This document shows positions 2,117-41,808 of a DNA stretch of 44,018 nucleotides, piece after piece. Each line of letters opens with the position of its first letter. Position 1 is the stretch's first letter. The translations under genes were made by a program, and so were the position numbers. The notes under the pieces are model-generated. The model was not told the DNA's origin, did not search any database, and saw only the letters and a list, made by a program, of their open reading frames with translations. Source of the stretch: a virus; IMG/VR virus record IMGVR_UViG_3300047668_000580, positions 1 to 44,018 of that record. One strand, written 5' to 3'.

Positions 2117-2689
2117 CTAAGGAGTTTCAAGTGTGAAAGAGGTATATCTAAACATAGCCACTCCCACCATATACTCCGTGGAACCAGTTGATATCTCAAA
2201 ATCTAGTCCCTGAATACTTACAGGAAACGCGTCCTTAAAGTTTATCTTTTGTATTGGGTTGTTGTTTGAATCTAAGATCATTAGTGTTGCATCACTATAT
2301 GATGTAGAGCCTCCATCCGAGTCTGGGAATCTATATCCCTGTGATAGTCCGTAAGCTGCGTGTTGTTTAGAATCTTCTGGGAACCCCAACCCAACCATCC
2401 AATTGTATAGCTCTTTATAGTTAATCATGTCCTCTTGTATAAGGAATCTAATCATTAACTGTCCAAATTCTATCTTCTCGCCTGGGTGAGGTATGTCTAC
2501 TAGTGGTGTTGATTGTACGGCAGGTATCATATTCATCTCTGGAATGTTAGCTGCTTGGCAAAAATATGAAACGTTTGGAATATTGTGGACTTGGAACTTA
2601 AAACCATTAGGTCGTAAGTAATCTAGCTCGTTAGGATTGTTTGAGGACCACGATGCTTCTGTTACATTTGTTATGTTGGTTGTTGTCAT
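2117..2689 (-). CDS. Tail-tube-fold virion protein, gp19-family-like paralogue
   Basis: This 190-aa protein has the layout of T4-like tube and tube-initiator proteins. An N-terminal RPNGFKFQVHNIPNVSYFCQ strand leads to an IPEM segment, then a LMIRFLIQEDMINYKELYNW block and a final strand pair ending VAMFRYTSFTLETP. The parallel to the genuine tube protein at 10272-10793 (RPNQFRVLLAF, then IPAS) suggests a second tube-fold subunit, perhaps a baseplate-proximal tube or hub piece (gp48/gp54 role). The assignment is by fold pattern only and the exact role is inferred. It starts 10 bases after iscA behind AGGAA, so it is read as the third gene of the iscU operon. Confidence 0.6.
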   Translation of the reverse strand: MTTTNITNVTEASWSSNNPNELDYLRPNGFKFQVHNIPNVSYFCQAANIPEMNMIPAVQSTPLVDIPHPGEKIEFGQLMIRFLIQEDMINYKELYNWMVGLGFPEDSKQHAAYGLSQGYRFPDSDGGSTSYSDATLMILDSNNNPIQKINFKDAFPVSIQGLDFEISTGSTEYMVGVAMFRYTSFTLETP

Positions 2690-2698
2690 TTCTTATTC

Positions 2699-3073
2699 CT
2701 AGTTGAACCCTACACTAATACCACAACCACATGAGGATGACTGTTGAGGATTCCTATATTCAAATCCCTCATTAAGTCCTTCAACCTTCCAAGCAATAGT
2801 AGTGCCTTCTAAATACATTTCTGACATAGGATCAAGCCAAAGAGTAAAATCACCAAAGTCTATTGGTATATCTGCATCTTCACCTTTTTCTGCATAATTA
2901 AATTCGTATGCAAAACCAGCACAACCTCCACCTGTTAAACCAAATCTAACTCCTGCAACTCCTTTGTCCTTAATCTTCTTTACGACTTCTACTAATGCGT
3001 CTTCTGTAAAGTCAACAATAGGACCACGTGAAGTGGCTATCATCATTGGGTCAAACGTTTTCGGTTGTGTCAA
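2699..3073 (-). CDS. iscA: IscA/HesB-type Fe-S cluster carrier
   Basis: A-type carriers receive Fe-S clusters (or iron) and pass them to target proteins. The three family cysteines are present: C51 in GLTGGGCAGF, and C115 and C117 in the C-terminal SSCGCG motif (equivalents of E. coli IscA C35, C99 and C101). At 124 aa it is slightly longer than IscA (107 aa) because of an N-terminal extension. The start is TTG at 3073, supported by GGAGG eight bases upstream; the internal ATGs near 3046 lack a Shine-Dalgarno. The gene overlaps the end of iscU by 23 bases, so the two are almost certainly translated together. An ErpA or SufA label is possible; the family call is firm. Confidence 0.92.
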   Translation of the reverse strand: MTQPKTFDPMMIATSRGPIVDFTEDALVEVVKKIKDKGVAGVRFGLTGGGCAGFAYEFNYAEKGEDADIPIDFGDFTLWLDPMSEMYLEGTTIAWKVEGLNEGFEYRNPQQSSSCGCGISVGFN

Positions 3074-7626: not shown

Positions 7627-8052
7627 TTAACCTAGACTTCCACCGTTATAAACACTACCTGAATCGTTGGTGTCTAATGGTGCGTCTTGGTGTTGTTGTG
7701 AACCATATCCAGAAACTTTAGCACAATCAACTATAACAGTACCGCCAGCTCCGCCGGCTATAACTACTTCTATATCTGATGTTGCTTCTGAGTTGTCTGA
7801 AAATCCGTACATATCTATGTTACCGGACTCCGTAAGTTCGTATAGTACGACGGAGTTACGTTGCACCTTAGCGGATGCCCCGGATGATAGTGTCCATTTA
7901 AGGCCTTTAATGTTAACTGCAGGGGAGTTCTGTGACTCTGATGATTTCTTTAGTGTTGTTGCTAAAGCAATGGTACCGGTAGCTGCAGTCCCCCTTACAG
8001 ATACTACACCCTGTACTTGGGTTAGTTTTAAATTATTTACTGTGACTGCCAT
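7627..8052 (-). CDS. Putative virion protein between portal and protease genes, 141 aa
   Basis: A beta-rich, Gly/Ser/Thr/Val-rich protein (MAVTVNNLKLTQVQGVVSVR, then IEVVIAGGAGGTVIVDC) with a disordered C-terminal tail (DTNDSGSVYNGGSLG). The composition and its position inside the head-gene cluster suggest a small head or structural protein, but I recognise no family. It is preceded by the 96-aa gene and followed 12 bases later by gp21, so it is probably co-transcribed with the portal-to-protease run. A decoration protein is one possibility, and this is inference. Confidence 0.75.
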   Translation of the reverse strand: MAVTVNNLKLTQVQGVVSVRGTAATGTIALATTLKKSSESQNSPAVNIKGLKWTLSSGASAKVQRNSVVLYELTESGNIDMYGFSDNSEATSDIEVVIAGGAGGTVIVDCAKVSGYGSQQHQDAPLDTNDSGSVYNGGSLG

Positions 8053-22685: not shown

Positions 22686-22697
22686 ATAATGATTACA

Positions 22698-23366
22698 ATG
22701 AAAACTATTTTAACTTTAAAATATGGCACCAAATATAGTGCTGAAGACGTGAATTCGATATACGAACATACCGATGGTGTGTACGATTACATCTGTGTAA
22801 CCGATGATCCCTCAGGGCTTAACCCTAACATTAAAGTTATTTATATAGAACACGAACCCGAAGGTAATATGGAGAAGCTTAAACTTTTTCAGATTAAGGC
22901 TGATGAGGGGGAGACTATATTATATTTAGATCTTGATGTACGAATACAAAAGAATATAGATCATCTATTCGACTACTGCCAGCACTATCCAGTAATCGCA
23001 TACACTTGGTGGAAGGATAAGGGTATTGATGAAATGCCAATAGATGAGTTTCCATACCACGCCAGCGAACCTTTAAGCAATTTTAACTCTAGTATTATGT
23101 TGTGGAAAGATGCAACGCATATTTGGAATCATTATTGTGAGAAACAAGACGAATATATAGTTAAGTATCCTCACGGAGATGATACATTTTTATACCATGA
23201 GGGATTTACCTTTGAACACTTACCCGATAAAGAGGTGTATTCATACATGTTCTCAGGTAGAAAATACAGACCTGAATATACAATATGTCTACTAAATGGG
23301 CAAGACAGATACCCGGAGATTGAGAAAGAATATGATGAACTTTGTTTGCATAAAATGGGGCGATAA
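22698..23366 (+). CDS. GT-A-like glycosyltransferase, paralogue 1 (222 aa)
   Basis: The first gene of the plus-strand cassette. Near the N-terminus LKYGTKYSAEDVNSIYEH precedes CVTDDPSGLNPNIKVI, and YLDLDVRIQKNID holds a DxD motif expected to bind a metal-nucleotide-sugar. The donor and acceptor are unknown. The same N-terminal signature recurs in the next four large proteins of the cassette, so they are tandem paralogues. ATG 22698 is preferred because the late promoter would start RNA at about 22691; ATG 22689 would precede the RNA start. The end overlaps the next gene. Confidence 0.8.
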   Translation: MKTILTLKYGTKYSAEDVNSIYEHTDGVYDYICVTDDPSGLNPNIKVIYIEHEPEGNMEKLKLFQIKADEGETILYLDLDVRIQKNIDHLFDYCQHYPVIAYTWWKDKGIDEMPIDEFPYHASEPLSNFNSSIMLWKDATHIWNHYCEKQDEYIVKYPHGDDTFLYHEGFTFEHLPDKEVYSYMFSGRKYRPEYTICLLNGQDRYPEIEKEYDELCLHKMGR

Positions 23367-24093
23367 ATACGAGCCTGCATATGTAAATAACCTGTATCGT
23401 ATGGTACAGAACAATTACAAGCATGACTTTACATTTACCTGCTTCACCGACGATCCCGTTGGATTGGATTGCGACACAAAACCTATACCCGATATAGATC
23501 CTCTTCACCCTAAGTACTGGTTTGGAATAGAGAACTACTGCTGGGATAGATCCAAGTTCCTTGTATTCAACTCGCATAACTGGTTGGGGTATAATGGAAA
23601 GTGGTGTTATATGGATCTTGATATAATAATTCATAATGATATATCAGATCTAAACGAACTAGCATTGAAACCTAGAATAGCACACTCCAATTGGCAGGAT
23701 CCTAAACAGTTACATGATAGGAAATTCATAGACATCAGAGGGACTTATCATAATTCTAGTCTCATGTGCTGGAACAGAGATCAATGTGAACACATATTCT
23801 GGGACGTAATTCAAGAAGAGCAACAAATATTCAGAACGTTCTTTAAGGGTACAGACAATTATCATTTCTGGAGACAGAGAGAGTTTTGGAATAACATACC
23901 TCACGATTGGTTGTACAGTTATAACCATGGTCTTAAATATCCAGATGATTTAGAGCGTTATAAATATAGAGAAGACTGTAAGATATGTATCTTTAATGTA
24001 AATAAGATTAAAGGCCAGACTCCACAGTATGAGATAAATGAAATAGATGATGAACAACTTTTGAGACATTGGCATGGTAACACTAATAGCTAA
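23335..24093 (+). CDS. GT-A-like glycosyltransferase, paralogue 2 (252 aa)
   Basis: This begins MNFVCIKWGDKYEPAYVNNL, followed by CFTDDPVGLDCDTKPIPD and a DxD-type MDLDIIIHNDI motif. A conserved TDNYHFWRQRE block and a YSYNHGLKYPDD segment near the C-terminus are shared with paralogues 3 and 4, so the fold is the same. ATG 23335 (or 23332) is chosen since the upstream frame overlaps the end of paralogue 1 and a GAGAAAG ribosome-site-like run precedes it. Both the DxD and the paralogue signature are intact. It overlaps the next gene by 20 bases. Confidence 0.82.
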   Translation: MNFVCIKWGDKYEPAYVNNLYRMVQNNYKHDFTFTCFTDDPVGLDCDTKPIPDIDPLHPKYWFGIENYCWDRSKFLVFNSHNWLGYNGKWCYMDLDIIIHNDISDLNELALKPRIAHSNWQDPKQLHDRKFIDIRGTYHNSSLMCWNRDQCEHIFWDVIQEEQQIFRTFFKGTDNYHFWRQREFWNNIPHDWLYSYNHGLKYPDDLERYKYREDCKICIFNVNKIKGQTPQYEINEIDDEQLLRHWHGNTNS

Positions 24094-25585
24094 TCAGCTA
24101 GACGCTAAATATAGTCAATCACATATAAATGCTTTTTATACACAAGCAAAAAAACTGATTGCTGATCCTTTTGACTTTGTTGTCTTTGTAAACCAAACAG
24201 AAATGAGTCTGCTAAACACAACCAAAAAGAAAGACGGGTACCTACAAGGGATTACATTCCATGTACCTAAGTACGGTAAAGACTGGATTGAAATTGATAT
24301 TATCCAGCATACCAAACCAGGCGAGCGTAGTCTACTTGTAACACCAAACGTTATATTAAACAATCCTGAATCGTTCTTTAGTTATAAGTCAAAGGGTATT
24401 GACAAACTATATCTTGAAGACGGAAATCTGTGTTACTTCTGCCACCGTAATGAAAAGGTTGAAGGCATATTATCTAAGTGGAATGAGATGGAAGACTCAA
24501 TGACGTTTGACAACCACTCCTTTGAAGATGCGTTCTTTAGTAACATTGTACCAGACTTTTCGTTTATACAAAATACAAATCACAACTACCCAGAAAAGAC
24601 TGAGGGCGACATAGTTGTATTGCCTTATTGGTATTCAGATTTCTCTAAAGAACAATTAGAATTAAATTACAACAGAGAGGCAGATCTATATCCTTGGCTA
24701 CCCGAAAGAGTAGAGATTGAAGCAATAGGACCTACTGGACATTTAACTACTGATATTGTTGAAGATGCTTTTACTGTAGACTTTTGTGAGAAGGCAAGAC
24801 TAAAAAGAATTAAAATGGTAGGACTTACACAAGATCCTACTGATAACCCAGAGTTGTTTGACATAATACAATACCTAATGGGTAACTGGGGCGTTGCAGT
24901 TGACCTTGAAACTGATGGTATTAATAACGACATGGGATGGTGGCGTACATTGGGTATGTTATACTTTACAATAACAAATAATATAGCTAACATTACATTT
25001 AATATTAATACCTCACACCCAGACGAAAAGATACTACGACATGCAGACGAGTTACTTAAGCAGGGTTGCAGAGTCTTTTGGAGTTACACACAAACATCGT
25101 TGACGCAAGAGAATGATGTTGTAAGAGCTAAAGAGTTATCTAAAAGACATCTTTTTACAGGTTTTATATATAATGATAAAATCGAACCAGAGAAAGTGGT
25201 TATAGAACCGAAGGAAACCAGTGAAATGCCAGACTATAATCTCATTACACTTGACACTCTACAGACAGTTAAACAAGACGACATATATAAAGAGAGAAAG
25301 ATAAAATTTGCTCCACATGTTAAATGTGAAGGTAAGATTAATAATCAATTTTATTTAAGTGCTAAAGGAAATGTATTTCCGTGTAAGCATGTAGCAAACA
25401 ATATTATCTCAGCAGACAGATCTCCAGAACATAGGACGGAGTTGATGTATAGTTGGGACAAGAACAATATTTGTAATTATACATTAGAAGATATTTTTAC
25501 TAATGATTTTTACAAAGGGTATTTTAATAATTTATTAAAGTTGAACCCGATAGTTATTCATAATGAACAGGAAGGCATATGTTAA
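24074..25585 (+). CDS. Degenerate glycosyltransferase fused to degenerate radical SAM/SPASM-like region, 503 aa
   Basis: Residues 1-120 align by pattern with the cassette's glycosyltransferases (LIANQLDAKYSQSHINAFYT, then FVVFVNQTE), but the DxD position reads LLVTPNVILNN, so the metal-binding motif is lost. Residues about 212-400 resemble a radical SAM barrel: KRIKMVGLTQDPTDNPELFD stands where GGEP-type motifs occur and VAVDLETDG where TNG occurs. The CxxxCxxC that binds the 4Fe-4S cluster is absent (IEAIGPTGHL instead). Residues about 415-503 look SPASM-like: C418, then YLSAKGNVFPC (C437), C467 and a terminal C503. Either a pseudoenzyme or a repurposed binding protein is likely. It overlaps both neighbours. 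Confidence 0.7.
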   Translation: MVTLIANQLDAKYSQSHINAFYTQAKKLIADPFDFVVFVNQTEMSLLNTTKKKDGYLQGITFHVPKYGKDWIEIDIIQHTKPGERSLLVTPNVILNNPESFFSYKSKGIDKLYLEDGNLCYFCHRNEKVEGILSKWNEMEDSMTFDNHSFEDAFFSNIVPDFSFIQNTNHNYPEKTEGDIVVLPYWYSDFSKEQLELNYNREADLYPWLPERVEIEAIGPTGHLTTDIVEDAFTVDFCEKARLKRIKMVGLTQDPTDNPELFDIIQYLMGNWGVAVDLETDGINNDMGWWRTLGMLYFTITNNIANITFNINTSHPDEKILRHADELLKQGCRVFWSYTQTSLTQENDVVRAKELSKRHLFTGFIYNDKIEPEKVVIEPKETSEMPDYNLITLDTLQTVKQDDIYKERKIKFAPHVKCEGKINNQFYLSAKGNVFPCKHVANNIISADRSPEHRTELMYSWDKNNICNYTLEDIFTNDFYKGYFNNLLKLNPIVIHNEQEGIC

Positions 25586-25797
25586 AAGTTAAAGATGGTA
25601 CGGTGATTGAAGGTAGTTTTAATGATGAGGAATTCATTCCTATTGTAGTCAACTCAGAATTCTCCACACTATTAGTTCAAATAGATTTAGAAAATTTCGA
25701 ACCAAAGTGTGTTGAAATTACAATGTTGCTTGCAGGTGAAGGCAAACAATACGGTACAGATTATGTTATTGTTAGGAGAGCAGTAAGTGAGAGTTAA
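25579..25797 (+). CDS. Small cassette protein of unknown function, 72 aa
   Basis: Starts at ATG 25579 after GGAAGG and overlaps the end of the 503-aa gene by 7 bases. The product has a short beta-rich core (IPIVVNSEFSTLLVQIDLEN, then VEITMLLAGEG) and a basic VIVRRAVSES end. No family is recognised. The ribosome site for the next gene (AGGAG, 25774-25778) lies inside its coding region, so the two are coupled. Confidence 0.75.
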   Translation: MLKVKDGTVIEGSFNDEEFIPIVVNSEFSTLLVQIDLENFEPKCVEITMLLAGEGKQYGTDYVIVRRAVSES

Positions 25798-26599
25798 TAT
25801 TGTATGTGCCAAGTGGGGGACAAAATATGGTCCTCACTTTGTAAACAAATTAAAGAATATGGCAAAAAGAAACTGTGATCCAAAACACGATTTCCATTTC
25901 TATTGTTATACTGATGACTCCGAAGGCTTTGATGATGACATTAAGGTTATAGACTTCCCAGATATTCCAAACATACACCCGAAGTATTGGTTCCAAAAAG
26001 ACGAATTTAAATATGGCATGGCACGATGTTGGGATAGACCTAAAACATTTGTATTCAATACGCACAACTTTGCTGAAGATAAACCTACAGGACGTTTTGT
26101 TTTCTTTGACTTAGATGTAATCATACAGAATGACATAGAGCCTTTACTTACATACAACATGGAACGGCCTACTAAGTTAAGATCTTGGTGGCAAGATCCT
26201 CGTCCAATGAAGACTCGTAGATTTAAATTGGCACATGGTGCATACACAAATGGCAGTTGTCAAGTATGGAGCGACGATCAGGCAGAATGTATATGGGACG
26301 ATGTATTAAAACACCAGGAACAGATATGGTTTACATATACAGACGGTACAGACAATTATCACTCTTGGAGATGGGGAGACTGGGGTAAGAAACTATGGGA
26401 TCACTTCCCGGCAGACTATGCTTACTCGTATAACCGAGGCCGTAGTTGGGACGATGACGATTTAGAAGTTGACATTTACAGAGAGACTCCAATTGTATGT
26501 GTATTTAATATTGATCTACTACCGTTTGAGGATGCTAGTAGAGGACACACAAAACAAGATGAGTTAGCAGACCCTGCGTTATTGAGGCATTGGGTATAA
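25787..26599 (+). CDS. GT-A-like glycosyltransferase, paralogue 3 (270 aa, GTG start)
   Basis: Begins at GTG 25787, eight bases after AGGAG; there is no ATG alternative with a ribosome site. The signature VCAKWGTKYGPHFVNKL is followed by CYTDDSEGFDDDIKVID and a DxD-type FFDLDVIIQNDIE motif. TDNYHSWRWGDWG and YSYNRGRSWDDDD near the C-terminus are shared with paralogues 2 and 4. The catalytic-looking motif is intact, so it is probably active. The stop TAA overlaps the ATG of the next gene (TAATG). Confidence 0.83.
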   Translation: MRVNIVCAKWGTKYGPHFVNKLKNMAKRNCDPKHDFHFYCYTDDSEGFDDDIKVIDFPDIPNIHPKYWFQKDEFKYGMARCWDRPKTFVFNTHNFAEDKPTGRFVFFDLDVIIQNDIEPLLTYNMERPTKLRSWWQDPRPMKTRRFKLAHGAYTNGSCQVWSDDQAECIWDDVLKHQEQIWFTYTDGTDNYHSWRWGDWGKKLWDHFPADYAYSYNRGRSWDDDDLEVDIYRETPIVCVFNIDLLPFEDASRGHTKQDELADPALLRHWV

Positions 26600-27288
26600 T
26601 GCACATAGAGTATTTAAATATCTATACGGTTAAACATGGTACCAAATACGGCTCCGCGCATGTTAACAAGATATTAGAATCCTGTAAGCAGAATTTGTCT
26701 TACAAGTTTACGTTTCATTGTTTAACTGAAAGTCCTAAAGGATTAGATGAAGACATAGTAGTCATTCCTCTTCCTAAAGATAACAAGTTAGAAAAATGGT
26801 GGAATAAGATGTACTTGTTTGATAGCAACGTTGTAAGACAGAAGGGTGAGAATCTTTTCTTTGACTTAGATGTTATCATACAAAAAGACATAGATGATAT
26901 AGCTAATTTCGATCCTGAGGATTGCTTAGCTTTTGGCCAAACACATTGGCATGATTTAGAAACTATGGCAAAGAACACAGAGCATGTTCCTCATAGATTC
27001 ACAGATTTAAATAGTAGTGTATTAAGATGGAACGATAACCTGGATACAGAAAATATATCGTTATATTTTAAAGCACATTTGGAAAAGGTCCTATGGTACT
27101 ATAGGGGGATAGATAACTTCTTCATGCACAAGGGTGTAGCAAGAATTAAATATTTTCCAATAGGGTGGTTTTATAGTTACAATCACGGGTACATATATCC
27201 GCATGATGTAGAAAAACAAGTGTACAGACAGATACCATATGTTTGTTTATTTGATTCAATGGGAAGAAAAGAAGATGTTAAATTTTAA
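26599..27288 (+). CDS. GT-A-like glycosyltransferase, paralogue 4 (229 aa)
   Basis: ATG 26599 overlaps the preceding stop as TAATG, which fits better than the TTG three codons upstream. The protein carries IYTVKHGTKYGSAHVNKILE, CLTESPKGLDEDIVVI and the DxD-type FFDLDVIIQKDID. It ends with a YSYNHGYIYPHDVEKQVYRQ segment shared with paralogues 2 and 3. It is shorter because a central insert present in paralogues 2 and 3 is missing. It overlaps the next gene by 14 bases. Confidence 0.82.
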   Translation: MHIEYLNIYTVKHGTKYGSAHVNKILESCKQNLSYKFTFHCLTESPKGLDEDIVVIPLPKDNKLEKWWNKMYLFDSNVVRQKGENLFFDLDVIIQKDIDDIANFDPEDCLAFGQTHWHDLETMAKNTEHVPHRFTDLNSSVLRWNDNLDTENISLYFKAHLEKVLWYYRGIDNFFMHKGVARIKYFPIGWFYSYNHGYIYPHDVEKQVYRQIPYVCLFDSMGRKEDVKF

Positions 27289-27943
27289 TTTTTTAAACAG
27301 TATGCAATATTGGGGAGAGGGTTTAGCCAAAGTCGAGCATGAAATGAAACACAAGCACGATGACTTTAGGCAGGCGCTTAATCCGAATACTATGGAAGGG
27401 GCTATTTGGTTAGTTGAAGAGCTAAAGAAAAGCCTAGACAATTACATGAAAGACGAGCAGTTTAATATTCTTATATTAAATAGCTGGTTAGGAGTTCCTT
27501 TAGTTCCACTGCTGTGTGAGAACTTGTCCGTAGGAGAAATGCACCTAGTTGACATCGATAAAGAAGCTTTAGAGCTCTCTAAGGTCTTTAACAAGCATTA
27601 TAGCACTGAAGAATACATAAAATTAAATCATTGGAACTTAGATGTTCCCTTCGCTTTTGATGAACTTAATCAATTGAATGTTGATATTGTAATTACAATG
27701 GGAGCAGAACAGATGTTTCCATTACAGGATTTAAAAACAGCAAACAAACATGCAGTATTTGCTTGTCAATCATCTAATGTTATTGAAGAGATGTATGGTA
27801 TCAACTGTGTGGATAGTGAGAAGGCTCTTATTGAGAACGTGGGTCTTAAAGATACCATGTACTCAGGTAAAACAAAACAATTTTACTATGATTGGAATGG
27901 TAAAGTATACTTCGATAGGTTTATGGCAATTGGCACAAAATAA
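27275..27943 (+). CDS. Methyltransferase-like Rossmann protein, 222 aa
   Basis: ATG 27275 follows GGGAAG and lies within the last codons of paralogue 4. The chain has a strand-loop FNILILNSWLGVPLVPLLCE at the SAM motif I position, then GEMHLVDIDKEALELSKVF at motif II with the acidic residue in place. The glycine-rich loop is degenerate (NSWLGVP), so SAM binding is uncertain. Similar sequence is seen next to glycosyltransferase genes in other marine T4-like phages to my recollection. A methyl transfer to a sugar or a surface group is the inferred role. Confidence 0.65.
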   Translation: MLNFNFLNSMQYWGEGLAKVEHEMKHKHDDFRQALNPNTMEGAIWLVEELKKSLDNYMKDEQFNILILNSWLGVPLVPLLCENLSVGEMHLVDIDKEALELSKVFNKHYSTEEYIKLNHWNLDVPFAFDELNQLNVDIVITMGAEQMFPLQDLKTANKHAVFACQSSNVIEEMYGINCVDSEKALIENVGLKDTMYSGKTKQFYYDWNGKVYFDRFMAIGTK

Positions 27944-35538: not shown

Positions 35539-38500
35539 TTATGCCTGAAGAGCTATAGCCCTTAAGTCTTTAAACTTAGGTACTTGTGCTGTATTGGATG
35601 ATAATGGTACAATTTTAACTGCAAAGGTTTTAAAGCCTGAGTGTGTAACAGTAGCAGTTGCTCCTGTTGCCGTCGCTCCACTACCACCACCGCCTGTAAT
35701 TGTTATAGTAGGTGTACTTGTATAACCTCTTCCAGGGTTTGTAATAGTAATTGAACTAACTGTTGTACCGCCGTTTAAATTTGCCTTTGCCGTCGCTCCA
35801 AAACCATTGCCGCCAGTTATAGAAACAGTTGGTACCGAGGAGTAACCAGAGCCTGCTGCTGTAACTGTTATTGCTGAAACAGTTTCTAAGTCGTATTCAA
35901 ATTCTCCACTATTTAAACCATATGTACCGGAGCTTTTGATTGGTAAAGTGTACAAATATTCTGCAAAACCATCTGTTCTTTCGTATGGTGCTGTAGTTGA
36001 TGATAGTTCTAACCAACTTAAATCTTCCTGGAAGTCTCCCTCATCTGCTGAGTTCATTAACTTACCATATACTTTAATGCTTCCTTCACTTGGAATTGAG
36101 GCATCAATATATACATTAAGATCTTCTGCGTCCATTCCGTCTTCTAGTATTACACGTCTTGAAATGTACTTGGATTTAGCACTACCACCGGTCCTGCCGT
36201 CTTCACCTGTTGATACATTGTTAACATCATTTGCTACTAGTAGCATGTTTAACATATCCAAAGGAATCATTGGTGAGATGTTTCTTTGAGGTGTACTCAT
36301 TATTAACTTCAACATTGCTGAAGCTTTAGATGCGTATGTTGTTACTTCGTTTGAATAACTGTAAATAGTTTTTTCATTTAATAGATTAAGTGTACTGTTA
36401 AATGTTAACGGTTCATACACTGGAGCTTGTTCTGCGTTACTAACAGCACCTGTTTTTGTTAGGGCTATGGATGCAATACATTGTGTTTCTGCGCCTGGCA
36501 TTAATAGTGATGCGTTTAGCGCAATGTCATTAACTACCTTGTCTGTGAATTTTTCGATTGAAGTATATCCTCTAGCTGAGCCTATCTTCATACCTGTTGT
36601 AAACTGTCCTGATCTCCAACTAACCTCGGCATACTTATGTAGGCTATTCCAGCCTTGTACAACACCTTGGTTAAGAGATACAGTTCCTGTTGCTTGTGTA
36701 GCTGAACCTGCTGAAATTGTTATAGTAGGTGCACTTAAATAACCTGATCCTGGATTAGTTACTGTTAATGCTGTTATAACATCTCCTGTAACAGTTGCTG
36801 TCATTGCTAATCCTGTTCCGTTTGTGCCTGTGTTTGTTACTGTAACAGTAGGTGTAAGTCCGCTATAACCTGTGCCTGCGTTTGTAATTGCTGGAGTAAA
36901 GCCAACAACCATATCGCCTGGTGTTAGTTGAACCATTGATGTAGGAACATATGTTCCAACTTCAGGTGTAATCCAATCAACTTTGGCATTTCTCACATAC
37001 CCTGTTACTTTAGTATCTGTTTTAAAGTCTGCAACCTTAAGATTAAACATCATGTCTTTTGATTGCTCAGGACTCCATGTTCTATCATTAGCCGAGCTAA
37101 ACATCATACCAGCGTGTGGTTGTTTAGTTATTCTTTCTGATGTTCCGTATTGGTTTTCACCCAACTCTGAGATCCACAATGTGTAATCTAGATTATCGTT
37201 CTCTGGTTTTGGAACAAAACAGTACTCTGTATCGTTTTGTAAATACACCATGTCTCGGAATTTAAATGTTGTTGGTGTAAATGTTGTAACACCATCTGTT
37301 TCAGATGAAATATTAATCGATGTTCTTTCTAAATATCTAGATCCGTTTGGAACTACTTTAGGTCCAGGGACTCCATTAATTACTTCTCTTAATTCTACTG
37401 TTACTCCATCAGTTCCTGATGTAGGTCTTCCCTTGAAGAACAAATCAATTTCAGTTACAAACAATCCTCCGGCCATTCCGCCTACTGAAAATGTTTGTGC
37501 TAACGGATCGCCTCCCATATTAAATCCCCAGAAGTCGAAGCCCCAATCAAAGTCCTCTCCAAAATCGAATTGGAAGTCGTCAATAACAGGTTCTGGATCT
37601 GGAATTGGATCTGGAATTGGAATGAATATTGGCCAATCTATAATTGGCCAGCCGAATATTGCAGGCGTAAATGTAACTGGTGGCTCGGGAGGAGCTGTGA
37701 ATGTTATAGGTGGCGCCGTGAATGTTACTGGCGTTATAATCTGTGTAAAGGTTACAACTTCAGTAAATGAAGCTACATTAGTAAACGTTACTACCGGTGC
37801 TGGTACAGGTGTTACTGGCGCCGGTACTTCAACAAATACCGTCTCTGTTACTGTGTTGTCTATTATAGTAACAATAGGTGGGTTGTTTATAATAACCGGT
37901 GCCGGTGCTGGTGGGAGGGGTGACCCTGCTCCAATAGAAACACCTAAAGACACATCTGTTGTTACTCTATCATCTGAAAATTGAGATGTATTAACGTTAG
38001 CAGTTTTCATTGCAACAATAGTGTCTTGCTTTGTCTGTGTTAGTCCTGATGACTCATATATTGCTGTTGCTGATGTTACCGAAATCTTATCGTTATTTGT
38101 GGGACTGTCTGTTAGTTTAAATACTCTAGCACCTGTTCTAAATACCCCTTGAGGTATTAGGAAGTTAACTGCTACAACTCCAGCTGCGTCTGTCATAAGC
38201 ACTTGGTTGCCAGTTGATAGTGTACAATTTGTCGTTACACTTTCACCATCGAAGAATGGATAAACTCTAGTATTAGGTTTCAATCTTCTTGCTTGAACTA
38301 CAACCAATCTTGAACGCATAAATGGTGCAATGGCTGTATCAACTACCTTCTCTCCTAGGTTTTGTGTCTCAGTTGATGCCGAAATGTCTAATGCAATACC
38401 CTGTCTAACTTGGGTTTGTTGTGTTGTAGTGGTGGTAAATAGTGAAGAACTTCCGTCTCCCCCGCCTGTTGAAAATGTATCTAAGGCCTGGGTTGTTGAT

Positions 38501-41500
38501 GTAACATTTGCTACACCGGTGTCTTCCCAATCGCCCCATTGTGTGCCCCAAGCGTCTGCCATGTTTTCCCAAGCATCGTAGTTACCATCAAAGTTTACAT
38601 TGACTGCTGGCCTAATAGCTGTGTCTACATAGTTATCTACGTTAGGATTGAGTGTTATATCTCCGAAATAGTTAAATTGTAACTCTTTAGCTAAGTTCTC
38701 AAATTGACTTGCTTTGTTTTGTTCTATATAAGTTCTTTGAGAATACGGGAGTGATAATGAACTACCAGTTCTAACTAGAGTTGATACTGTGTTACTAGTG
38801 GGATTAGTGATACCTGAATGTACAAGAGTCTCAATGTTTTCTGTAACAAAGAACGGCCTCGCATGTTTGGCTTTACCATCAACTGCTATGTGGTAATCAG
38901 GATCTAATACTGCCCCTACGTTGTGGCCTGTGAAAGGATCCACTAATATGCCATTTTTAAATCTATCTGTTCCACTAGCATTAATAATTGTTTGATCTTT
39001 AGCATATGTCTCTAATAAGTTTAAAGATGCATAATACTCTAAGTTTTTAATCCTAGATTCTAATCCACCAATGTCTTGCATTGTGAATCTTTTATTAGCT
39101 GCTTGTTTTACTACTACACCATAATCAGGCCTGTTTACTGTCTTGGCTAATTGAGGTGAAACACATGGATATGGTGGCAATTTAATATTTGCCAAAGTCA
39201 TTGATTGAGCAGGTTCAGGTGGTAACTTAGGCGTATTTGAATTTGCCCCTTCTACTATTCTGAAATTGCCGTCAAAGTCTAATACTACTCTAATATGTTT
39301 TCCAATGTAGTATTGTAAGTCTGTTGTAAATGTGCCTGTAGGTACTGGATTTGTTAATCCTGAACCGGGTCTGTTAATTGTTTCAGATGCATCAGGGTTA
39401 ACAGTAGCACCAGCTAACGTTGCTGAGGTTGCTGCTGTATTAATTGTTTTAGGTCTAAAGTCGATTGAATCTCTAAGATCTATATCGCCATATTTATTTG
39501 ATCTATAAAGTGGAATGTCCTCTGTTCTGATTGTGCCGGATGCTGGTGTTGCAGTATCATCTACAGGGTAACTATCTACACTTGAGAACGTTGCTGTTGA
39601 AACTGTGTCCGTAAAGAACGACATCTTAACAACGATATATCTGTTTGTTGATAAATTAATAGTACTTGTTGAATGTTTAAATAGTTTAGCTTGGCCAAAG
39701 TAGTTGTCTTGTTGACCTGTTATAAATCTAAACTGATCTGTTACATCTACTTGTCCTGTTACATAGTCTGAATTGCTACCAATTGTAATAGATGATATTT
39801 TATATCCATCACAAACACCTAGGTTATATTCACCTGATGTTGAATTTACATGTGTACCAGTATCAAGTTTAATGTATTTGTCTACTTGTAAAGCTTTAGC
39901 AATTGGTTGTGCGTTTGCTATTTGAGTATTAACATATACTCTTACATCTGCCGAACCCGCTCCTACTGTAATTGCTCCGCCTAGATCTATTGTTATAGAT
40001 GTTGAACTGTTAACAGTAACCGAAGCATTTGTATTTGTTGATGTTAAGTCTATATAATCGCCGGCCGCGATTGTTGCTACATTTTGTACGAATCCGTCTT
40101 TACTAACAACAATAAAGTTGCTAACAATTTGAGAATCTGTTAATGTCCCAGAGTATGGGAATGTCTCACTTCCGGAAGTTGTTATTGTAACGTTACCACC
40201 AGATGTATCTAGTGTTACATCATACTCTTTCATGTATGTGTATGTGTAGTCTAATGAGCCAGCATCGGCTTCTAATGTTTTAATATTTTTATATGGAAGT
40301 TTGTAAACTAATTTGTTTACTTTTGTTTCGCTTAGTACAGCTTTACTACTTACTAATACAGCATTTGCTATACCTGGGTTTGCTGTTTCTGATCTAAGGC
40401 CTCTGACTGCTGTAAAATCACCTGAAGACATTTTAACATCATATAAGTAAATTCTATATACTGCTGATGTTGCTCCGGCTGTTCCGCTAGTCCAACATAT
40501 GTGTCTTGCTTTTGCTGTACCAACTTTTGTTCCTGCTGCTGAAGCAGCGCCGTCTTGTACTGCATTGTATAAGTCTACAACTGTTCCACCATCTACATCA
40601 AATACACCGTGTGTATGATTTACGCTTATATAATTACCATAAGCAGTAGACAATGTTCTTGATTCTTCAGTCTCAAATGCTAATGATTTGTATATTGGAA
40701 TTCTTTTTGTGCTTGATAGTTCTCTTTTAAAACCACCAACATATGAAATACCTGGATCTATTCCAATAACAAGTGCTTTGTTTGTTCCGTTATTAGCAGC
40801 TGTATATAGGCCGCCATTTGTACCGTTATTAAGATGCTCTCTTATTGAAACAGTATTACCCTTAACTAAGTAGTTGCCTGATTCGTCATAAGTCCTTCCA
40901 GCTAGGATTTTACCTACGCCTGATAGTGGATTGTCTTTAAGATTAATCCTTTGAATTTCTCCGCCAGTCCAATTAACATATGTGTAAAAGTTTTCTGGTT
41001 TTGTAGCTGTATCATTATATGATGCTAGAGTAACTGTATACTCTAAACGATCTGCTCCAGGAGCATTAAAGTTAAACGATCCCTGTGCCGGATCTAATAA
41101 GCTATTATCTGTTGATGATTGTTTTACTGCCTCGCCTATTAGGAAGCCAACATTTTTGGATTTCATTCCGTAGTATTTGTCGACTAAACAACTAATTTTA
41201 TTTGTTTTAATAAATGCGCCACGTGCGTATATAACACCGGGTTCAAGTATAACTCTACTTGTTTGTCCTGAATAGCCTGTAGCTGAATTTACAACTAGCG
41301 TATCGCCGTTGTATAAAGCGTAACCATATCCTGTAGTTGTTCCGTCTGATGGAATGAGTGTTAGTGTTTCACTTGCCTGAAAAGTAGTCTTAGTAGATGT
41401 TGTACTGCTTGTATTATATACTAAATACAAAGTTTTCATGTTAGGTGCGCCAGCAACAGTTCCTGTTTCAACTGCTGTTATCGTAGCTCGCAAGCCTGTC

Positions 41501-41808
41501 GTTCCACCCTGGACATCCATACCAACATAACCTTTTAAAGCTGTGTCAGTAATTGCAGCTGAGGCTGCGTCGGTATCTTGTATTTTAATATATGATACTC
41601 TTTGTACTGTCTCAGCACAACCTGTTACAACTGCTCCCTCTTGTAACAAGAAACCAAATCCCTTAGAGAATTGATCCTGTAGAATAGTTTGTAGTTGTGT
41701 TAGTTCCCTTGCCTGTACAGCGACGCCGGGTTTAAAAAGAATCCTATGAAACTTTTTATCTTGACTAAAATCGTCGTAGTATGGTGATGCGTTTAAATTG
41801 AGTGCCAT
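35539..41808 (-). CDS. Giant structural protein with DUF4815-like N-terminus, 2089 aa
   Basis: The N-terminal domain (ASPYYDDFSQDKKFHRILFK, then PGVAVQARELTQLQTILQDQ) matches the DUF4815 pattern found in large baseplate or tail structural proteins of marine T4-like phages. A proline-, threonine- and phenylalanine-rich section (about residues 1300-1420, ending in repeated PIPDP units and an acidic-aromatic FDFGEDFDWGFDFWGFN) precedes FSVGGMAGGLFVTEIDLFFK. GxGYxSxPTVTI-type modules occur at about residues 1639-1706 and 1976-2056. It is probably a tail or baseplate appendage. It starts four bases before the end of gp8 coding, so the two are in one operon. Confidence 0.85.
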   Translation of the reverse strand: MALNLNASPYYDDFSQDKKFHRILFKPGVAVQARELTQLQTILQDQFSKGFGFLLQEGAVVTGCAETVQRVSYIKIQDTDAASAAITDTALKGYVGMDVQGGTTGLRATITAVETGTVAGAPNMKTLYLVYNTSSTTSTKTTFQASETLTLIPSDGTTTGYGYALYNGDTLVVNSATGYSGQTSRVILEPGVIYARGAFIKTNKISCLVDKYYGMKSKNVGFLIGEAVKQSSTDNSLLDPAQGSFNFNAPGADRLEYTVTLASYNDTATKPENFYTYVNWTGGEIQRINLKDNPLSGVGKILAGRTYDESGNYLVKGNTVSIREHLNNGTNGGLYTAANNGTNKALVIGIDPGISYVGGFKRELSSTKRIPIYKSLAFETEESRTLSTAYGNYISVNHTHGVFDVDGGTVVDLYNAVQDGAASAAGTKVGTAKARHICWTSGTAGATSAVYRIYLYDVKMSSGDFTAVRGLRSETANPGIANAVLVSSKAVLSETKVNKLVYKLPYKNIKTLEADAGSLDYTYTYMKEYDVTLDTSGGNVTITTSGSETFPYSGTLTDSQIVSNFIVVSKDGFVQNVATIAAGDYIDLTSTNTNASVTVNSSTSITIDLGGAITVGAGSADVRVYVNTQIANAQPIAKALQVDKYIKLDTGTHVNSTSGEYNLGVCDGYKISSITIGSNSDYVTGQVDVTDQFRFITGQQDNYFGQAKLFKHSTSTINLSTNRYIVVKMSFFTDTVSTATFSSVDSYPVDDTATPASGTIRTEDIPLYRSNKYGDIDLRDSIDFRPKTINTAATSATLAGATVNPDASETINRPGSGLTNPVPTGTFTTDLQYYIGKHIRVVLDFDGNFRIVEGANSNTPKLPPEPAQSMTLANIKLPPYPCVSPQLAKTVNRPDYGVVVKQAANKRFTMQDIGGLESRIKNLEYYASLNLLETYAKDQTIINASGTDRFKNGILVDPFTGHNVGAVLDPDYHIAVDGKAKHARPFFVTENIETLVHSGITNPTSNTVSTLVRTGSSLSLPYSQRTYIEQNKASQFENLAKELQFNYFGDITLNPNVDNYVDTAIRPAVNVNFDGNYDAWENMADAWGTQWGDWEDTGVANVTSTTQALDTFSTGGGDGSSSLFTTTTTQQTQVRQGIALDISASTETQNLGEKVVDTAIAPFMRSRLVVVQARRLKPNTRVYPFFDGESVTTNCTLSTGNQVLMTDAAGVVAVNFLIPQGVFRTGARVFKLTDSPTNNDKISVTSATAIYESSGLTQTKQDTIVAMKTANVNTSQFSDDRVTTDVSLGVSIGAGSPLPPAPAPVIINNPPIVTIIDNTVTETVFVEVPAPVTPVPAPVVTFTNVASFTEVVTFTQIITPVTFTAPPITFTAPPEPPVTFTPAIFGWPIIDWPIFIPIPDPIPDPEPVIDDFQFDFGEDFDWGFDFWGFNMGGDPLAQTFSVGGMAGGLFVTEIDLFFKGRPTSGTDGVTVELREVINGVPGPKVVPNGSRYLERTSINISSETDGVTTFTPTTFKFRDMVYLQNDTEYCFVPKPENDNLDYTLWISELGENQYGTSERITKQPHAGMMFSSANDRTWSPEQSKDMMFNLKVADFKTDTKVTGYVRNAKVDWITPEVGTYVPTSMVQLTPGDMVVGFTPAITNAGTGYSGLTPTVTVTNTGTNGTGLAMTATVTGDVITALTVTNPGSGYLSAPTITISAGSATQATGTVSLNQGVVQGWNSLHKYAEVSWRSGQFTTGMKIGSARGYTSIEKFTDKVVNDIALNASLLMPGAETQCIASIALTKTGAVSNAEQAPVYEPLTFNSTLNLLNEKTIYSYSNEVTTYASKASAMLKLIMSTPQRNISPMIPLDMLNMLLVANDVNNVSTGEDGRTGGSAKSKYISRRVILEDGMDAEDLNVYIDASIPSEGSIKVYGKLMNSADEGDFQEDLSWLELSSTTAPYERTDGFAEYLYTLPIKSSGTYGLNSGEFEYDLETVSAITVTAAGSGYSSVPTVSITGGNGFGATAKANLNGGTTVSSITITNPGRGYTSTPTITITGGGGSGATATGATATVTHSGFKTFAVKIVPLSSNTAQVPKFKDLRAIALQA

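Follow-up and report, generated by a model that had tools for sequence, protein, structure and literature searches.

That pseudoenzymes and relatives of enzymes can support glycosyltransferases is already known. As set out in passages of PMC3391682, the P450 homologue EryCII activates the glycosyltransferase EryCIII, and Cosmc is described in part of PMC5493369 as the chaperone of T-synthase. In the pelagimyophages, the host recognition cluster comprises GT8-rich and radical S-adenosylmethionine (SAM) cassettes within a host-recognition island, for which passages of PMC7029224 propose modification of host lipopolysaccharide. The present analysis concerns one gene in a 44,018-nucleotide stretch of viral DNA (positions 1 to 44,018 of IMG/VR virus record IMGVR_UViG_3300047668_000580), henceforth referred to as the window. 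The open reading frame (ORF) at 24074..25585 on the plus strand encodes a 503-amino-acid protein in which a GT8-like glycosyltransferase (GT) domain is followed by a radical SAM barrel and a SPASM-like domain. Profiles, structure models and a homologue alignment lend good support to the prediction that the protein is a double pseudoenzyme. The role that we moderately favour is that of a non-catalytic accessory subunit of the phage GT cassette in which the gene lies, with the partnership itself being putative.

The likeness of this protein to EryCII would be functional only, that of an enzyme relative serving as an allosteric GT partner; EryCII (PMC3391682) differs in having a P450 fold, in not being homologous and in not coming from a phage. 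A likeness to Cosmc as a GT-associated chaperone partner would also be functional only, Cosmc (PMC5493369) being a eukaryotic endoplasmic reticulum chaperone without a radical SAM part. Pelagimyophages are likewise marine and T4-like, and the passages of PMC7029224 make no mention of a GT/radical SAM protein that is fused or inactive. Among the matches listed in searches of the open-access literature there was no such radical SAM pseudoenzyme and no dead GT joined to a dead radical SAM/SPASM unit. Both component families were already known.

Domain composition of the 503-residue protein

The frame contains no internal stop, and its GLTQDP (residues 250-255) and DLETDG (residues 277-282) stretches, C418, C437, C467 and C503 were found at the places given in the initial annotation, as was the absence of CxxxCxxC. 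Relatives were collected by scanning IMG/VR, with 47 loci taken first and at most the best 80 loci per scan thereafter. The counts given here refer to 55 distinct full-length or near-full-length homologue ORFs, with identity down to ~42%, which comprise the clade of the window protein (the window clade, 50 distinct sequences) and a sister clade of five (L080, L082, L083, L111 and L112). Short or truncated ORFs were left out, as was L194, which encodes an intact radical SAM protein and had entered through a loose score cut. A tblastn search of 50,697 deposited phage records (INPHARED) with the whole protein and with its C-terminal part returned no relative; a PHROGs search with the 503-amino-acid protein and a search of PDB sequences with the family profile gave no match. 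Bacterial genome contigs contained one relative, on a contig assigned by binning to a Flavobacteriales metagenome-assembled genome.

Residues 205-372 (24686..25189, plus strand, as are all features of this gene) are predicted by profiles and structure models to form a radical SAM (beta/alpha)6-type barrel that lacks the cluster motif. A profile built only from the C-terminal half of the family matched phage radical SAM proteins with intact CNAACPMC or CQAKCPMC motifs at expectation values (E) down to 2.6e-22, with 220 rows at E<=1 and no reversed decoys. Pfam matches to Radical_SAM were weaker and below the curated cut-off, both for the window protein (E 0.023) and for the relative L075 (PF04055, positions 46-116, E 2.6e-5). 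Homology is clear to phage radical SAM/SPASM proteins such as L192, L205 and L171 (PF04055, PF13186), which have the barrel and the SPASM-like domain in common with the window protein but keep CxxxCxxC (71 of 73 distinct proteins, the other two being cut by contig ends) and carry no GT-like domain.

Two structure models were considered. Model 1, built from 21 family rows only, was confident mainly over residues 221-367 and matched NifB, Mmp10, SuiB and PqqE (Z 11.7 to 10.8); its N-terminal half was poor, with a mean predicted local distance difference test (pLDDT) score of 47.4. Model 2 (mean pLDDT 78.8) was built from an alignment that, besides family rows, contained 20 radical SAM rows cropped to begin after the Cys motif, and no GT row. 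Its best structural matches were radical SAM-SPASM enzymes of ribosomally synthesized and post-translationally modified peptide (RiPP) pathways, namely PqqE (Z 17.7, root-mean-square deviation (rmsd) 3.5, 227 residues, over 205-502) and SuiB (Z 17.6, rmsd 3.2, 230 residues). In the structure searches, unrelated barrels, including methylenetetrahydrofolate reductase and orotidine monophosphate decarboxylase, also matched, lower in the ranking. In a further alignment (A5), which mixed GTs, radical SAM proteins and the family, the GTs were placed wrongly, and no model was built from it.

By fold and by profile homology this half belongs with the radical SAM superfamily, but the motif of the SAM [4Fe-4S] cluster, CxxxCxxC, was found in the barrel of none of the 55 homologues. 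Four of the 55 contain a CxxxCxxC at the C-terminus, built from auxiliary-type cysteines. A cluster motif elsewhere in the protein was considered and rejected, the candidate C120-x2-C123 being present in 14/55 at most. In model 2, the first barrel strand (212-215) is followed after only ten residues by the first helix (226-232), and residues 217-225 (24722..24748) form a short link at the place where intact relatives are longer and carry CxxxCxxC. The claim of a missing loop is based on this short link together with the absence of the motif and not on MAFFT columns, in which the first barrel strand of the family was aligned with the Cys motif of the relatives. Part of the intact relatives' GNxGDP (GGEP-type) motif survives as GLTQDP (G250-P255; 24821..24838), and their DGLxDTxHxYR stretch is missing in the family.

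Residues 1-200 (24074..24673) are predicted to form a GT8-like GT-A domain. The initial annotation had noted an N-terminal resemblance to four GT neighbours (designated GT1, GT2, GT4 and GT5), and this resemblance proved real, if weak in sequence. A profile of family residues 1-200 gave 38 matches outside the family at E<=1 (best E 1e-4), every one (38/38) a GT ORF, with no reversed decoy among them. In a first hhalign run, the N-terminal half of the family matched GT2 (E 3.3e-5), GT4 (1.1e-4), GT5 (5.1e-5) and GT1 (0.037), compared with 0.81 for the neighbouring 234-amino-acid ORF as a control. In a second run, three GT profiles gave E 2.5e-5 to 5.4e-5 (probability 67-75%) and the fourth 0.021; the three scored 38-41, compared with 29.5 for the best of 20 decoy families (a radical SAM fragment), the decoy check covering these 20 families only, and 20.4 for a reversed GT2 profile. 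Since the GT2, GT4 and GT5 profiles have many members in common, they are counted as a single line of evidence. Model 2, over residues 1-205, matched the GT8-type structures 3tzt_A (Z 10.0, rmsd 5.1, 181 residues), GlyE 5gvw (Z 9.1, rmsd 5.6, 171 residues) and 6mw5 (Z 8.8, rmsd 5.4, 179 residues). Structure prediction followed by a fold search had been set beforehand as a check on the initial annotation, and both the GT-A and the radical SAM/SPASM folds were matched, in agreement with the profiles.

The pseudoenzyme thus has the GT-A fold and the N-terminal signature in common with GT8-type phage GTs (phrog_1962; 3tzt) but lacks their DxD metal and uridine diphosphate site. The initial annotation placed TPN at the DxD position; the acid-free site was borne out, the exact register less so. 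T90-P91-N92 (24341..24349) is invariant in 55/55 homologues and coincides with the DxD position or is offset from it by one residue: alignment by eye puts residues 90-92 there, hhalign puts residues 89-91 under DLD, and the two registers are equally plausible. In either register the acid is absent, since no homologue (0/55) has D or E anywhere in residues 86-96. A DxD slightly downstream was also considered, but the D-I-D found ~10 residues later occurs in just 11/55 homologues and is not conserved in the others. Among related GT ORFs of the loci examined (distinct, at least 200 amino acids), 201/201 have D-[LMVI]-D followed 60-140 residues on by GxDN or a similar motif; as these ORFs were collected with GT profiles, strongly degenerate GTs could be under-represented. 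The dead GT domain is also shorter (~200 residues compared with 222-270 in the GTs), and the acid of their GxDN motif has no clear counterpart in the alignment. Neither a DxD at this site nor the barrel CxxxCxxC was retained in any of the 55 homologues, the second check set by the initial annotation.

Operon context and glycosyltransferase fusions

An upstream GT ORF runs into the start of the gene, with an overlap of 20-35 nt, in 55/55 family ORFs with room for one, partial ORFs included; the raw count was 55/56, the sole miss being the intact radical SAM protein L194. In the window this ORF is GT2 (23296..24093, plus strand), which overlaps the pseudoenzyme gene by 20 nt and contains DLD; GT2 had no library match of its own and is assigned as a GT by similarity to GT1, GT4 and GT5. 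A downstream GT was found within 600 nt in 47/60 cases (L194 among the misses) and started within 1.2 kb in 45/45 full-length members with at least 1.7 kb of following sequence. At loci L050, L051 and L058, where no GT lies within 600 nt, a 71- to 82-amino-acid ORF and a thymidylate synthase X-type gene (L051:5681-6394, PF02511, E 4e-44; L050:5688-6359; L058:5682-6365; Pfam was run for L051) intervene before the GT.

In a GT2-based search (best 80 of 214 loci, 78 examined), the pseudoenzyme gene was present in 75/78; one contig ended too soon and two (L319 and L320) were without the gene. In a second search (best 80 of 176 loci, 74 examined), the gene was found in 70/74, one fused form counted; three were without it, with just 365-649 bases before GT4, and one contig ended too soon.

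Fused forms join the C-terminal module to the upstream GT itself. The fused frame, found at L396 and L398 (one contig) and in relatives (L396:1292-3508; L398-L405), has 735-739 codons and encodes, in order, a GT2 with DLD and G[ST]DN, ~240 residues of unknown kind, half a barrel without CxxxCxxC and the SPASM-like domain. Nine contigs were found, and the fusion is seen in eight of them (six distinct sequences), the ninth, L406, being cut before the GT. The fused module was assigned by the family profile, at E ~1e-15 to 1e-18 over complete SPASM-like stretches; Pfam SPASM matched the fused L396 at E 0.0099, below the cut-off, and gave no match in L402.

Taken together, gene context and fusion to a GT suggest a physical association between the pseudoenzyme and the GT machinery. 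The protein could instead bind its ligand independently of the neighbouring GTs, for example as a sink or decoy for a SPASM-recognized peptide or host protein, and occupy the cassette for expression or mobility only; we regard this as unlikely, although it deserves consideration. SPASM domains of RiPP enzymes bind peptides, and some of these phages encode many intact radical SAM proteins (ten Radical_SAM matches, eight over the cut-off, in one 170-kb contig, with any such match in 5/20 records searched), so that cognate substrates may be present. The occurrence of the GT operon without the pseudoenzyme gene points the same way. An independent binding protein is at odds with the constant overlap with the upstream GT (55/55) and with the fusion to that very GT in eight contigs. 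Five tandem radical SAM genes with CxxxCxxC intact were observed at L154:502-7229 in that 170-kb contig (G011).

Auxiliary cysteines, descent and selection

Residues 414-503 (25313..25582) are identified by Pfam, models and alignment as a SPASM-like domain, and the structure matches of model 2 extend to ~502 and so cover it. PF13186 was matched at E<=0.1 in 16/21 members (best 0.0051), with the window protein at E 0.091, below the cut-off. Intact relatives typically have four auxiliary positions, C, PC and C-x3-C (the strict pattern matched 47/71). Profile and fold similarity therefore place the domain with the SPASM/twitch group, but the full auxiliary set C...G-x3-PC...C-x3-C is lacking in the window clade, where two of the four positions are kept; the protein differs from PqqE and SuiB in these incomplete auxiliary ligands as well as in the missing SAM-cluster motif.

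The cysteine set proposed by the initial annotation (C418, C437, C467 and C503) was not upheld. C418 (25325..25327) is kept in 55/55 homologues and C437 (25382..25384) in 47/55, with Ser in seven and Phe in one; these eight losses all fall within the 50 window-clade sequences. The third auxiliary Cys is replaced by H496 (25559..25561; H in 49/50 and W in 1/50 of the window clade), and the fourth by E500 (25571..25573; G in 28, E in 15 and D in 7 of 50), with Cys at both positions in 5/5 of the sister clade. C467 is present in just 2/55 homologues. C503 (25580..25582) is present in 54/55 and corresponds to none of the four auxiliary positions in the alignment; the start codon (ATG, 25579-25581) of the following ORF overlaps its codon. 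This ORF encodes 72 amino acids (25579..25797, plus strand), is kept in relatives and has no Pfam match. Such an overlap with an ORF of at least 55 codons was found in 50/50 of the window clade and is sufficient to explain the conservation of C503. With two auxiliary positions replaced, C467 unconserved and C503 explained by the overlap, auxiliary-Cys chemistry is unlikely in the window clade.

A residual non-canonical activity, either sugar transfer that needs neither metal nor DxD, or metal binding or redox chemistry at C418, C437 and H496, is accordingly rated as decidedly improbable. The invariance of C418, the retention of C437 in 47/55 and of H496 in 49/50 of the window clade, the four auxiliary positions kept in the sister and fused clades and the Fe-S carrier genes of seven sister-clade contigs would all fit such an activity. 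The replacement of C437 by Ser or Phe in 8/50, the G/E/D variation at position 500 and the origin of C503 conservation in gene overlap speak against it, as do the shortness of the dead GT domain and its want of a clear GxDN counterpart.

The five sister-clade proteins keep all four auxiliary Cys without a barrel CxxxCxxC, and all four are also present in the seven fused contigs with a complete end (L405 is cut in the SPASM-like end). An orphan auxiliary cluster is therefore plausible, from sequence, in these two clades. We know of no precedent for an auxiliary iron-sulphur (Fe-S) site without the SAM cluster in a radical SAM fold. In seven sister-clade contigs (L080, L081, L082, L112, L116, L117 and L118), the operon is followed by an A-type Fe-S carrier gene, located in L080 at 7658-8038 (PF01521, E 2.5e-12); L083-type contigs gave no A-type Fe-S carrier match within the stretch examined. 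The window encodes a 39% relative of the A-type Fe-S carrier at 2663-3019 on the minus strand, away from the cassette.

In a tree of the SPASM domain, fused, sister and window-type proteins lay on one side of a branch and 20 intact radical SAM proteins on the other, with support of 99/97. The same split was obtained at 100/100 in a longer C-terminal tree without the fused forms. The alternative in which the sister and fused clades group together was not rejected (approximately unbiased test, p-AU 0.18). Since the pseudo forms fall on one side of the branch, a single, early loss of the SAM motif is probable, and the auxiliary positions were likely lost later, in the window clade. Sequences and models indicate that the C-terminal half derives from a phage radical SAM/SPASM protein in which the SAM-cluster motif has been lost, together, in the window clade, with half of the auxiliary-cluster positions. 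We put forward only tentatively the fuller scenario in which a radical SAM/SPASM enzyme was recruited into the phage GT machine as a non-catalytic subunit, its SPASM-like domain holding the acceptor, and in which an orphan auxiliary Fe-S site persists in two lineages that lack the SAM cluster.

Purifying selection on the pseudoenzyme gene is clear. The ratio of nonsynonymous to synonymous substitution rates (dN/dS) was estimated by the Nei-Gojobori method for 25 sequences, and pairs were kept only if 0.1 < dS < 1.5. The median was 0.20 for the whole gene (105/300 pairs), 0.22 for residues 1-200 (97 pairs), 0.30 for residues 201-372 (163 pairs) and 0.11 for residues 402-503 (136 pairs). The most constrained part is thus the SPASM-like one, despite its broken ligand set. 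A decaying, functionless passenger gene or an assembly artefact, for which one might cite the loss of both catalytic motifs and the two related contigs without the gene, is contradicted by these values, by the 55 distinct copies, by their open frames and by the constant operon position, and is considered highly improbable. The intact maintenance of the gene asserted in the initial annotation is in keeping with the same open frames and dN/dS values.

Candidate role and viral setting

In the accessory-subunit role favoured here, the upstream GT2, its acceptor or both would be the binding target of the dead GT domain and the SPASM-like domain, and this binding may steer or stabilize the glycosylation either of the host surface or of a virion protein. 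Of the functions suggested initially, a binding or scaffold role fits the GT context and the fusions; chemistry at the auxiliary cysteines found no support for the window clade.

Several observations weigh against this role or the domain assignments beneath it. The related contigs L319 and L320 carry a GT1-GT2-GT4-GT5 operon without the pseudoenzyme gene, and the GTs are presumably able to work without it. Among 73 distinct intact-type radical SAM relatives (loci L157-L236), none has a GT8-like ORF within ~2 kb, leaving the motif-less clade as the only one in which the GT link is observed. Sequence similarity between the N-terminal half and the GTs is weak, the GT1 profile scoring 21.9, below the best decoy (29.5), and the DxD register is uncertain by one residue. 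Both trees are long-branched and unrooted, the SPASM tree has few columns and the bootstrap of the C-terminal tree was unsettled.

The three natural forms (auxiliary half lost, kept, or fused to a live-looking GT), together with the gene-less operons, provide a comparative set for the role of the SPASM domain after loss of SAM chemistry. The window comes from a T4-like marine virus and has genes for portal, major head protein, terminase, tail sheath and baseplate wedge. Its major head protein is nearest to that of Methylophilales phage Melnitz (71%), followed by those of Pelagibacter phages HTVC008M (69%) and Mosig (68%). With a head protein close to those of Methylophilales and SAR11 phages, the system may be relevant to the modification of host or virion surfaces by marine phages.

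The cassette lies on the plus strand, flanked by minus-strand structural genes and a minus-strand DNA ligase. Besides GT2, the pseudoenzyme and the 72-amino-acid ORF, it contains GT1 (22689..23366; phrog_1962 glycosyltransferase, E 5.8e-13), GT4 (25787..26599; phrog_1962, E 0.021, and similar to GT1 and GT2) and GT5 (26590..27288; phrog_1962, E 1.2e-8), all on the plus strand. It is closed by a plus-strand 234-amino-acid ORF (27239..27943) with a weak spermine-synthase-like match (E 0.022, below the curated cut-off). The exact reverse complement of 24074-25585 is stop-rich in frame 1; the longest listed ORF on that strand inside it has 108 codons. Elsewhere in the window, the minus strand at 35542-41808 encodes a 2089-amino-acid protein with matches to phrog_358 and phrog_877, and this gene adjoins the baseplate wedge gene.

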